Shown: one piece after another, positions 6,992 to 27,935 of the stretch | Numbering within the stretch: the first letter of the stretch is position 1 | How the letters are laid out: every line of letters starts with the position of its first letter | IMG/VR virus record: IMGVR_UViG_3300027759_003931 | Span: 1 to 28,049 of that record | Direction: 5' to 3' (one strand) | From: a virus | Length of the DNA stretch: 28,049 nt | The notes under the pieces: model-generated | What the model saw: only the letters and a program-made list of their open reading frames with translations | What the model was told of the DNA's origin: nothing | The model's database searches: none | Made by a program: the position numbers and the translations under genes

Positions 6992-7420
6992 ATGGAATAT
7001 TTATTAATTATAGGCTTGACATTGCTGTCTTATTGGTCTATAATTAAAATATCAAACAAAAGAAGAATGGTATTTTTAAACAAAAATAAATATAGACAAA
7101 GTTCTATCTATGAAATGGTTAAAGATGTTGTTCCAAAGCAAAGGTTTGATAAGCCTAAAGTTATAACACAATCTCAAAAACATATTCAAAAAAATATGCT
7201 AAGAGTCGTAATAGCAGAAGGAAGTGCATACTGGATATTGAACAATGTTTTCTATACCGCAAACGCTATAAATGGCAGGGTAGATGAAGAAACAATTCAA
7301 CCATTAGATATTGAAAATATGCCAACAAAAGAATTAGACAAGATGTTATCAATACTTGATGACTTAAAACAAGGGGTAGGGCCAAATGATAGTAGCAGTA
7401 CAGGGAACAAAGGAATTTAA
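6992..7420 (+). CDS. Conserved hypothetical with N-terminal membrane anchor
   Basis: A 142-residue protein with one hydrophobic segment at about 3-20 followed by a basic stretch, so it is probably anchored with the rest in the cytoplasm. The soluble part contains RVVIAEGSAYWILNNVFYTA around 71-90, then an acidic helix PTKELDKMLSILDDL. I recall similar small proteins in environmental phages, with no known function. Its end overlaps the next gene by 35 bases. Confidence 0.75.
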   Translation: MEYLLIIGLTLLSYWSIIKISNKRRMVFLNKNKYRQSSIYEMVKDVVPKQRFDKPKVITQSQKHIQKNMLRVVIAEGSAYWILNNVFYTANAINGRVDEETIQPLDIENMPTKELDKMLSILDDLKQGVGPNDSSSTGNKGI

Positions 7421-7957: not shown

Positions 7958-8239
7958 TTGAAACAGCATTTGTGGAAAGACGAAGCATTATGTTTGGGAA
8001 TGGAAAACAATTCATTTTTTGATAAATATGAAGATCATGAAGAATCTAGAAAAGGTGTTGACGCACTTTGCAAACAATGTCCAGTAAAAAAAGTATGCTT
8101 TGCAAATGGCATATCTGGAAAAGAGTGGGGCGTCTGGGGTGGAGTATACCTAGAAGGTGGAGAAGTTTCAAGAGAGTTTAACAAACATAAAACAAAACAA
8201 GACTGGTCAAATACTTGGCAAGCCTTGACAATGGAATAA
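7958..8239 (+). CDS. WhiB-family iron-sulfur transcription regulator
   Basis: A 93-residue WhiB-like protein. The four cluster-binding cysteines are C12, C38, C41 and C47 (C-x2-C-x5-C for the last three), followed by the diagnostic EWGVWGG turn at 56-62. WhiB proteins are restricted to actinobacteria and their phages. They bind a redox-sensitive 4Fe-4S cluster and act with the major sigma factor. The start must lie before C12; TTG at 7958 is the only fitting start, with AAGGA seven bases before it. The basic tail is short compared with DNA-binding WhiB members, so sigma-factor interaction may dominate. Confidence 0.93.
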   Translation: MKQHLWKDEALCLGMENNSFFDKYEDHEESRKGVDALCKQCPVKKVCFANGISGKEWGVWGGVYLEGGEVSREFNKHKTKQDWSNTWQALTME

Positions 8240-10006: not shown

Positions 10007-10236
10007 TGTATACAAATGAAATGCGTAGGGCTGTACATTCAATCACACCGCCTAAAGGATTTGGCATAGAGATTATTGACAATGAGCACTTCCTTACAGT
10101 AAAATTAGATGAATATAAATTTCTAAAAATGTTACATGATGAAAAGATAGAAGCATTAAAGTATGTTGTTCAAATAAAAAAGGCTTTAGAGATAAATGGA
10201 GCAATTGTATTAGTTACAAGAGAGGCAGTAAAATGA
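10006..10236 (+). CDS. Small conserved hypothetical protein
   Basis: A 76-residue soluble protein with alternating beta and helix (GFGIEIIDNEHFLTVKLDEYKF, then a charged helix, then INGAIVLVTREAVK). It starts at the last base of the preceding stop and its own stop overlaps the next ATG. Function not recognised. Confidence 0.7.
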   Translation: MYTNEMRRAVHSITPPKGFGIEIIDNEHFLTVKLDEYKFLKMLHDEKIEALKYVVQIKKALEINGAIVLVTREAVK

Positions 10237-22508: not shown

Positions 22509-22562
22509 GGCGAAAATAGAGGTTTGAAGTTCGGCGACGGAAAGAGATATCAAACCTTCCAA

Positions 22563-22577
22563 TGCCCTACAAGGGCA
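22563..22577 (-). terminator. Short hairpin after the C2H2-like gene
   Basis: TGCCCT and AGGGCA form a 6-bp stem with a 3-base loop immediately after the stop of the minus-strand gene at 22578. No T tract follows, so it may be a weak terminator or mRNA-end hairpin. Confidence 0.4.
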
Positions 22578-22685
22578 CTATCGGTGAGTATCCTTCATAT
22601 GCCTAGCCAATGAGTCGTGAGCAAAGATAGCCCATCTAAGTTCCCATTCTTTATTACAGATAGGACATATGATTGTTCTTGACAT
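22578..22685 (-). CDS. C2H2-like zinc finger micro-protein
   Basis: A 35-residue protein with C7-x2-C10 and H29-x4-H34, the pattern of a C2H2 zinc finger with a longer loop. Its start codon is six bases from a near-perfect promoter, which supports a real gene despite its size. It may bind DNA or RNA; it directly borders the repeat-rich gap. Confidence 0.7.
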   Translation of the reverse strand: MSRTIICPICNKEWELRWAIFAHDSLARHMKDTHR

Positions 22686-22691
22686 GAATCT

Positions 22692-22720
22692 ATTATCTCA
22701 AATTTTTGCGGGGAAGTCAA
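22692..22720 (-). promoter_or_regulatory. SigA-type promoter for a leaderless mRNA (zinc finger)
   Basis: TTGACT (22715-22720), 17 bases, GATAAT (22692-22697), six bases to the ATG at 22685 on the minus strand. Confidence 0.75.
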
Positions 22721-23465
22721 AAGTATCCCCATAACCACCAGTATAATAACAAACCTTTCAAACCATATAGCCTGATATCCCCATATCCCAGATAGCCCAG
22801 ATAGCCAAAAAGTAAGGTTTGAACCTGTGTGCAACTATCTGGTTTGATAATGAGAATATGCACAATATGGATCCAGGGCGATGGTTTGATACCCGCTAAT
22901 TTAAGGCTTGGAAGGCTTTTAAATGCCATTTAGAATGGTTTGATAAGAGAAATAAATCTTACTGATATTTTTTAATTATAGTTAAAAGGGAGGAAAGTGG
23001 AGGATAGTGGGTGATTGGGCGATTTTATAGATGGCGTCGTAATCCTCTGGCGGCCAAACCTCCCTATCCCAAACCTTCCAAACCTTTCTATCCCCATATC
23101 TGGCATGCATTATACCCCCAAAACAATGGTTTGTCAAACCTTTATAGCCTAAAAAAATGCCCCAAAAATGTAGCAAAATCTTTTAAAACACCAGGAAAAA
23201 ATCTAGAAAGGTTTGATAACTATGGTAAAAGTTTTAAATAATTCGCAATTTAAATTCCCGCTTCGTAATGTCTATTAATACTAGGACTCAGCGCCCCGCG
23301 TGGACGCAAAAACGGCGGGGATAAAAAGATATACCAATACTCCTAGTAGTATACAAACCATATCTTCTGGATATAAAGGTTTGGCAGATATGAGGTTTGA
23401 AGGTTTGAGATTGAAAGGTTTGAAGGTTTGATATGAATCTGGAAAATTCTACAAATGTCGTAATC

Positions 23466-23486
23466 TCCCACGATCTGGGATTTTTT
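23466..23486 (+). terminator. Possible plus-strand terminator in the gap
   Basis: TCCCA and TGGGA form a 5-bp stem with a 5-base loop, followed directly by TTTTTT. Short stem, so tentative. If active it would end a plus-strand transcript, against the direction of all nearby genes. Confidence 0.4.
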
Positions 23487-23565
23487 AGAAAAGGTTCTTA
23501 ATGTCTTTTAGAGAAATCTATGTCCGTTTTGGGTGGTTTGATATAGTTTACCCGAGCAAGCAGGG

Positions 23566-23832
23566 CTATGCCTGGTCGCCAAGCAATTCGTCAAGACTTT
23601 CCCACTCTCTATCAGCAACTTGTAGAGAAGCAATAAATAGATCATAGGTTTCGTTTATATATAACTCTGACTGACTTGTTGGCAAAACAATTTCATTCAT
23701 CAAGAAATAGGCAAGTGGCAAACCTAAATCGTTATACTCTACAAAATCTTGTAAGTCCTCATCATCACGATAGTTCATCCACAACTCAGCAAGGATAGTT
23801 ATCTTATTCTCAAAAGTATTACCGCCTGCCAT
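23566..23832 (-). CDS. Conserved actinophage-type hypothetical protein
   Basis: An 88-residue acidic protein with ILAELWMNYRDDEDLQDFVEYNDLGLPLAYF at about 13-43 and a DREWESLDELL end. I recall nearly the same block in small actinobacteriophage proteins of unknown function. The start overlaps the end of the preceding gene by 14 bases. It lies at the edge of the repeat region. Confidence 0.75.
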   Translation of the reverse strand: MAGGNTFENKITILAELWMNYRDDEDLQDFVEYNDLGLPLAYFLMNEIVLPTSQSELYINETYDLFIASLQVADREWESLDELLGDQA

Positions 23833-24052
23833 TGTAAACTCCTCTATCTAATTGGTCAACTTCTTTATTATACTGCATGGCTTCCAATACTTCATTAGCC
23901 CTAGTATAAATAATATGGGGAGAACCCTTTGCTAAATAAAATCCTATGGCTTCTAAGTCAAGAGTAAAGTCAGATAGCAAAGTAGTTATTCTACCTGCGA
24001 CCTTTTCCTCTTTACTTATTCCAAGTCTAATAGACCTACGCATAAACCCCAT
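23819..24052 (-). CDS. Small conserved hypothetical protein
   Basis: A 77-residue helical, basic protein with RLGISKEEKVAGRITTLLSD and DLEAIGFYLAKGSPHIIYTRANEV. Two ATGs are possible, at 24052 and 24043. The leaderless-type promoter six bases before 24052 favours that start, while GGGG lies only three bases before 24043. Small actinophage proteins of this kind often precede the 88-residue gene that follows. Function unknown. Confidence 0.7.
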   Translation of the reverse strand: MGFMRRSIRLGISKEEKVAGRITTLLSDFTLDLEAIGFYLAKGSPHIIYTRANEVLEAMQYNKEVDQLDRGVYNGRR

Positions 24053-26918: not shown

Positions 26919-27935
26919 CTAAGCCAGTTGCAAAGTATTTTGCACAATAGTTAGCAAACGATTTTTCTCTGCGTTAATTGCAGGGTCAAATCCAGAAGCA
27001 GCAGCAAACATGCTTTCGCTATTACCACCACGAGCAGAACGATACCAGTCTAAACGCTCAGTTAGTGCATTGAACGCACCCCAAGCATTTCCACTAATCA
27101 TTCCGTTATATTCACCAGTATAGATATCGTTAATCATATCTACCTTGTTTTCCCATTTCTTTACAGCACCCTTAGTGTCTAAATCAGGCTTAGGGTAAGC
27201 AGCAAGAATAATGTCATTGAAATCTTTTGCGGAGATTTCTTTTGCTATCATAGCGTGAGCCATCTTATCAAATTCGTCCATGTAAGAATTAGCCATGCCT
27301 AGTGCCTGACGAGCAACAGTTATTTTGCCTTCAGCAGTTTGTGTATGACGGATTTTAAAAGATTGCTTTACGCCGTCTTTCTTGCGTGTACGATTGAGTG
27401 CAACATTAAGAGTATTAGCGCACACAACGCGAACAGGTGTTATGCTTGCTTGAATGGCGATTGAGCCATCATGTGATGTGTTAATAAGCAGATAAGTTTT
27501 AACAACATCTGCCACGCCGTTAGGGTCTAATACAGTTTCACGCTCTAATGCAAGAGAGCCAAATACTACACGACCACCACGAATTGAGCCAGCAGTTTCC
27601 CAGCGACCCCCACCATCAAGAATGTTATCACCAAATGAAAACAAATCTTCATTTTGTAGTGGAACATAACGCTCACCAACAATTCCCAAAACATCAGTTT
27701 GAGTTTTATCAGTAGGGTTAGTGCGAACAACATATTGGTAAGATTTATCAGATACTAAACTAGATGGGATTTCTAAATCTTCTAGTCTAACATTCCAATT
27801 ATTAAGATTAGCAGCAACTAACATTTCGTTAGTATTTTTCTCAGTATCAAATACAGTACCAAGATTGTGCCATGCAGGTTCACGGAATGATGCAAAACTT
27901 GCAACACCGTTTTGAGTTTCTAACTCATGAGCCAT
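26919..27935 (-). CDS. DUF932 / phage-plasmid-like protein (TIGR03299 type)
   Basis: A 338-residue protein matching the DUF932 family: FREPAWHNLGTVF near 17-29, GIVGERYVPLQNEDLFSFGD around 84-103, INTSHDGSIAIQASITPVRVVCANTL around 151-176 and FKIRHTQTAEGKI. The family is frequent in phages and plasmids and sometimes called LGT_TIGR03299; its role is not known, although it is often among the first genes. GAAAGGA is the ribosome site. A promoter at 27962-27990 gives a 19-base leader. Confidence 0.92.
   Translation of the reverse strand: MAHELETQNGVASFASFREPAWHNLGTVFDTEKNTNEMLVAANLNNWNVRLEDLEIPSSLVSDKSYQYVVRTNPTDKTQTDVLGIVGERYVPLQNEDLFSFGDNILDGGGRWETAGSIRGGRVVFGSLALERETVLDPNGVADVVKTYLLINTSHDGSIAIQASITPVRVVCANTLNVALNRTRKKDGVKQSFKIRHTQTAEGKITVARQALGMANSYMDEFDKMAHAMIAKEISAKDFNDIILAAYPKPDLDTKGAVKKWENKVDMINDIYTGEYNGMISGNAWGAFNALTERLDWYRSARGGNSESMFAAASGFDPAINAEKNRLLTIVQNTLQLA

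Follow-up and report, generated by a model that had tools for sequence, protein, structure and literature searches.

The window, the whole 28,049-nucleotide (28-kb) viral record analysed here, belongs to a widespread group of uncultured freshwater actinobacterial viruses. One of its reading frames (7958–8239) has a translation that, judged by eye, resembles WhiB, an accepted actinophage marker (PMC6802176; PMC10202952). A long run of genes at 11.8–19.4 kb resembles, again by eye, glycosyltransferases, methyltransferases and one sugar epimerase, and an Rfam search of the window returned three tRNAs only. Among small minus-strand genes lies a stretch (hereafter, the gap) rich in the hexamer GGTTTG. 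A preliminary description had counted about 21 copies in 1 kb; the exact count in 22521–23540 is 21, a density of ~20.6 per kb versus 0.9 per kb in the remaining window. Over the entire window GGTTTG or CAAACC occurs 46 times, a number reached by none of 100 dinucleotide shuffles (14.3 ± 3.5). The features of the gap and its conserved neighbours, which together with their counterparts in relatives we refer to as the module, are as follows.

22521–23540, both strands: 21 clustered GGTTTG sites (13 plus, 8 minus) belonging to degenerate arrays whose period is 8 bp
22841–22888, plus strand: two further TGGTTTGATA sites (at 22841 and 22883), on the far side of the core
22937–22942, plus strand: GGTTTG site at a fixed offset of 24 from the core element, where relatives carry DnaA boxes
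22949–22988: presumed DNA-unwinding element at the end of the core; this 40-mer has the lowest duplex stability in the gap (99.3rd percentile of the window)
22952–23043, minus strand: conserved core of the putative origin, ~90 bp, ATTACG...CCCACTATCCTCCACTTTCCTCC...ATCAGTAAGATTTAT
23038–23043, plus strand: first of three TCGTAAT elements in the gap (others at 23264 and 23459)
23055–23084, minus strand: three GGTTTG sites lying between promoter and core and oriented with transcription
23109–23137, minus strand: predicted sigma-70-type promoter with 12 of 12 consensus bases (TTGACA at 23137–23132, 17-bp spacer, TATAAT at 23114–23109), conserved
23128–23140: palindrome GGTTTGTCAAACC over the −35 box, consisting of two inverted GGTTTG sites, conserved in part of the relatives
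23210–23540, minus strand: array upstream of the promoter, with sites mainly in one direction (CAAACC on the minus strand)
23566–23832, minus strand: 88-aa gene, a conserved neighbour encoding an acidic helical protein, present in 54 of 57 modules
23819–24052, minus strand: 77-aa gene, a conserved neighbour encoding the best candidate array-binding protein, present in 56 of 57 modules
26919–27935, minus strand: DUF932 gene, upstream, present in all 57 modules examined

Most of what had been described for the gap could be reproduced. The inverted pair is present as listed, and two identical 16-mers, AGGTTTGAAGGTTTGA, lie at 23393–23408 and 23416–23431. The gap is largely gene-free, with no convincing gene longer than a 35-aa reading frame at 22578–22685; other reading frames, 64–79 aa in length, overlap one another on both strands, and the ones covering the core are not preserved as open frames in relatives. 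A 42-aa reading frame across the core was rejected as a gene on that account. The cluster is not a CRISPR, as had been stated: its repeat families are 12–26 nt long and irregularly spaced, and long repeats with regular spacers were not found.

Relatives were collected with the DUF932 protein and with the 88-aa protein adjoining the cluster. In most of ~200 related viral loci, the densest GGTTTG/CAAACC kilobase is found at the same location, directly downstream of the pair of small conserved genes. Six or more sites fall within the 1.4 kb after the 88-aa gene in 170 of 196 loci. The gap contains 8.67 sites per kb compared with 0.99 per kb elsewhere (73 non-redundant loci). Two large records, G001 (116.6 kb) and G002 (114.4 kb), have one single 1-kb bin each with at least 6 sites, and a third, G005 (104.5 kb), has two, one at 79 kb (the module, 9 sites) and one at 94 kb (8 sites). 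The conserved core occurs once in each of these three records, in G005 at 78.8 kb. Equal density of the motif elsewhere and absence of the cluster from relatives, the two outcomes that the preliminary description had named as speaking against it, were thus both looked for, and neither holds. All of these sequences are metagenomic contigs whose shared ancestry lowers the number of independent observations, for which the non-redundant subsets correct only partly.

The sites had been described as irregularly spaced. This holds only in part: in pooled relatives the same-strand spacings are strongly periodic at 8 bp. In 46 strictly non-redundant clusters, same-strand distances peak at 8, 16, 23–24, 31–32 and 40 bp, with 71% of spacings within 1 bp of a multiple of 8 (random mean 39%, maximum 49% in 500 placements). 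The periodic signal at 8 bp is 0.48, compared with at most 0.22 in 500 randomisations, and no periodicity at 10.5 bp was seen in the same clusters. At a distance of one unit, positions in the flanks of the sites are conserved more weakly. Besides GGTTTG, the word TCGTAAT is enriched in the gap of relatives (3.65 per kb versus 0.53 per kb), including several that have no GGTTTG. Relatives without GGTTTG have other enriched words there (AATTTGG at 10116–10490 in L113; ATCCCCA at 904–1402 in L121), which perhaps reflect a changed specificity of the binding protein. The idea that each uses another single word spaced by 8 bp was dropped, as L113, L121 and others have too few copies for a period.

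Read along the minus strand of the window, the module consists of the array, the promoter, three sites, the core, the unwinding element and then, in relatives, DnaA boxes. Aligned near relatives share long invariant stretches. The −35 box of the promoter overlaps the palindrome GGTTTGACAAACC. Among 122 modules, a set selected for a promoter with at most one mismatch, a GGTTTG site overlaps the −35 box from the left side in 66 and from the right side in 45. A set unbiased for DNA motifs comes from loci retrieved solely by protein search; of its 63 distinct modules, 43 have the perfect promoter, versus 4 of 315 stretches drawn at random from the same loci. A second TTGACA-N17-TATAAT promoter with 12 of 12 consensus bases is located at 7016–7044, inside the reading frame 6992–7420.

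The columns of the core were located with a pattern fixing CAGTAA, so that the conservation of its letters is partly by construction. In the window, duplex stability is lowest at the core element, and the profile averaged over 79 non-redundant modules has its minimum there too, as expected for the AT-rich unwinding element of an oriC-like origin. This element has an A at every third position, which is compatible with 3′-NAN-5′ DnaA-trios, a reading that is suggestive only because part of the element's letters is fixed by the search pattern. RNAalifold found no consensus RNA structure in 94 sequences; the constraint therefore seems to act on the DNA.

Directly after the core, many relatives carry TGTGGATAA DnaA boxes. 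About half of the relatives have two to seven, which share one strand and are spaced in multiples of 11 bp; the first of them mostly lies 16 bp away from the core. Among the 63 distinct modules, boxes lie within 150 bp of the core in 29, with the first at exactly +16 in 25; no box is reversed, and the background is 0.027 boxes per 150 bp. The larger set of 122 modules contains 263 forward and 0 reversed boxes, their number being biased since the set was partly collected with a pattern containing two DnaA boxes. Spacings in this set cluster at 11–12, 21–23, 32–34, 43–45 and 52–55 bp, as expected for sites on one helix face; one relative, L124, has seven boxes within ~100 bp. The box cluster expected of an oriC-like origin is thus found in 29 of 63 distinct relatives and is absent from the window, whose gap holds no DnaA box even with one mismatch; close relatives likewise have none. 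The sequence TTATCAAACC was considered as a degenerate box and rejected, given its three mismatches and its orientation opposite to that of the relatives' boxes.

What takes the place of the boxes is in part another site. CAAACC is present within 60 bp in 19 of the 34 modules that have no boxes, at offset 24 in 15 of them, and in box-bearing modules CAAACC never occurs before offset 42. The other 15 of the 34 have no replacing CAAACC within 60 bp. This, like the absence of boxes from the window and from about half of the modules, counts against the origin reading set out below. On this comparison of sequences, the branch of the window appears to have dropped the DnaA boxes while retaining the virus-specific repeats. 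As the core, the promoter and the array are kept in this branch while the boxes are gone, either the task of DnaA passed to another protein or DnaA had never been required.

Of the two neighbouring products proposed earlier as binders of the repeat, that of 23819–24052, the 77-aa protein, is a reasonable candidate in view of its near-constant presence beside the module. Gly37 and Arg51 are invariant in its family, and Pro45 and Tyr49 nearly so. A structural model of modest confidence (pLDDT 76.6, pTM 0.36) has three helices and could be a helix-turn-helix. Several relatives without GGTTTG also lack the equivalent of Pro45, with exceptions, an association that is a lead on the binder and not a test. 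The family has no match in PHROGs, PDB sequences or deposited phages, and a fold search of the model against the PDB gave nothing significant. The same search gave nothing significant for the confident helical model of the 88-aa protein. We regard the 77-aa protein as the best but unproven candidate for binding the array. The other proposed binder, a 35-aa C2H2/zinc-ribbon-like micro-protein (22578–22685), is preceded by a promoter-like TTGACT-N17-GATAAT (22720). Similar reading frames occur in 70 fetched loci (tblastn), but it is an unlikely binder, being absent from such cluster-rich close relatives as L006, L008, L009, L022 and L096. A ribbon-helix-helix binder was rejected, with no RHH_1 (PF01402) match in nine large related records even at an E value of 1. 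Behind the promoter there is no conserved gene; the most frequent downstream family occurs in 21 of 57 loci, versus 54–57 for the upstream neighbours.

More than 100 uncultured viral contigs carry the module. Deposited phages contain only distant DUF932 relatives, the best at 55% in Streptomyces phages (one of this group, Jay2Jay, is placed in Stanwilliamsviridae), and a search of them found no relative of the module or of the 77-aa and 88-aa proteins. The origin pattern was also run against 84,980 bacterial and archaeal species, and one contig matched. This contig, L272, is 22.9 kb long, comes from a Chitinophagaceae metagenome-assembled genome and also has the 88-aa gene; it is probably a misbinned phage contig. 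As for the replication machinery, G002 encodes RecA, the DNA polymerase III alpha subunit (DnaE), a DnaG-type primase and a DnaB-type helicase. The initiator family searched by profile was DnaA domain IV, which gave no match in nine large related records, with positive controls; a phage-encoded DnaA was rejected on this basis. ParA (PF13614) and ParB (PF02195) profiles matched none of the same nine records, with controls positive.

Taken together, we consider it likely that the GGTTTG cluster is part of the replication origin of this actinobacterial phage group and that the array is bound by a phage-encoded protein. Of the functions put forward in the preliminary description, an origin is the one that the relatives favour, with DnaA boxes, unwinding element and promoter lying together in their sequences. 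Phased host-initiator boxes at a fixed distance from the weakest duplex, an array of sites and a strong promoter, combined in one unique non-coding module, are standard origin anatomy, from which we infer that replication starts here. A change in third-position skew across the region was not seen (22 loci, P = 0.23 and 0.31), and this counts against an origin. In the mechanism that we propose, a phage-encoded protein would bind the arrays that flank the strong promoter, built from 8-bp units that are best conserved as GGTTTG, and melting would take place where the conserved core ends, in the AT-rich element ATCAGTAAGATTTAT. About half of the lineages would have help in opening this element from host DnaA bound to the phased boxes beside it. 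In the branch of the window, where the boxes are gone and GGTTTG sites lie near the same place, the phage protein would have to open the element alone, possibly aided by transcription from the promoter through the core. The DnaB-type helicase, DnaG-type primase and DNA polymerase III alpha subunit of the phage, as encoded by G002, could then take over.

A more far-reaching version, which we put forward tentatively and hold to be possible at best, is that a natural swap of initiators has occurred within one origin. Host DnaA and the phage protein would act together on the core and unwinding element in some lineages, and in the window's branch the same core and element would depend on the phage protein only, with GGTTTG at offset 24 mostly in place of the lost boxes. 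This protein, perhaps the product of the neighbouring 77-aa gene, would then coat 8-bp arrays and represent a novel type of initiator or origin activator. The literature searched yielded no description of origins of large uncultured actinophages. If the origin reading is true, the module can serve as an origin marker in a virus group common in freshwater, and its gradation from many DnaA boxes to none forms an evolutionary series in which dependence on a host initiator can be tested directly.

That the module also binds a regulator, as had been suggested, may well hold in addition, since GGTTTG sites overlap the −35 box. A regulatory switch and nothing else seems unlikely to us. It would consist of a strong early promoter with a stoperator-like operator array for a phage repressor or activator, tuned by host DnaA through the boxes and driving the variable small genes to the left. 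The perfect promoter beneath a GGTTTG palindrome, the arrays flanking it in opposite orientation and the small, variable, early-type genes downstream all fit such a switch. It leaves unexplained the ~90-bp core, the +16 distance and helical phasing of the DnaA boxes next to the least stable DNA, and the lack of a conserved gene after the promoter. True stoperators of the L5 type are moreover dispersed in the genome and mostly intergenic, whereas here there is essentially one cluster (G001 and G002 have a single peak each and G005 has two bins, the rest being at background level). We give somewhat lower odds, well on the improbable side, to an RNA-primed origin, in which the leftward transcript from 23109 serves as a primer or as a non-coding initiator RNA; such a role of RNA has been proposed for the prophage origins of cluster A mycobacteriophages. 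Actinophages are known to have RNA-based origins (PMC7157519), and the conserved promoter reads into the core with no conserved gene behind it; against this, conserved RNA structure was not found, parABS was not found either, and the DnaA boxes and arrays point to opening by a protein. It can be combined with the protein-opened origin that we favour.

Two further functions are very improbable. A partition (centromere-like) site, also suggested in the preliminary description, would have cooperatively bound 8-bp arrays like omega-repressor heptads or ParG/ParR sites, and 8-bp periodic arrays in both orientations do resemble those of ribbon-helix-helix proteins. The suggestion found no support: the element would be expected to encode ParA and ParB, the nine large related records match neither these nor RHH_1, and the core and DnaA boxes would be left unexplained. 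A packaging (cos/pac) site has, if anything, the slimmer chance. The module is non-coding, unique and conserved, and the DUF932 gene of Jay2Jay lies 1.6–2.7 kb from the genome end, but contigs run through the module in most relatives, and DnaA boxes and a promoter are not expected in cos/pac.

Among known systems, ribbon-helix-helix proteins bind arrays of short units, direct and inverted, over promoters, with 8 bp for the met boxes of MetJ and 7 bp for the heptads of the omega repressor. The module shares with these the 7–8-bp period, the direct and inverted units and the position over a promoter; its sequence is unrelated, its array is far longer and RHH_1 is not matched.

Clustered sites for a protein encoded by the element itself, an AT-rich unwinding element and adjacent DnaA boxes, all in single copy, make up the iteron-plus-DnaA-box origins of plasmids and of phage P1 (oriR). 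The module is alike in its clustered sites, its AT-rich element, the DnaA boxes beside it (in relatives) and its one copy per genome. It differs in having 8-bp units over ~1 kb in both orientations, a perfect promoter inside, a whole branch without DnaA boxes and no recognised rep gene, the initiator profile search being that with DnaA domain IV. The RepA iterons of P1 are mentioned in PMC7157519, which also describes RNA-based and RepA prophage origins of cluster A mycobacteriophages. These lie beside parABS, have no reported repeat motifs and can be deleted with lytic growth remaining normal. Like them, the module is an actinophage, non-coding origin region, transcribed (here by a predicted promoter) and without a recognised initiator gene; unlike them, it has repeats and, in relatives, DnaA boxes, and neither a consensus RNA structure nor parABS was found.

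The basal unwinding system of bacterial oriC consists of DnaA boxes and DnaA-trios, 3′-NAN-5′ with GAT preferred (PMC8287927). The relatives resemble it in their tandem boxes of one orientation followed, within 16 bp, by an AT-rich element with A at every third base, whereas the trios would read TAG-AAT-GAC-TAT and not the preferred GAT, in letters partly fixed by the search pattern. The module resides on a phage and is not a copy of a host oriC, given the one matching contig in all the species searched. By analogy with the plasmid and P1 systems, the module may work like an iteron/DnaA-box origin.
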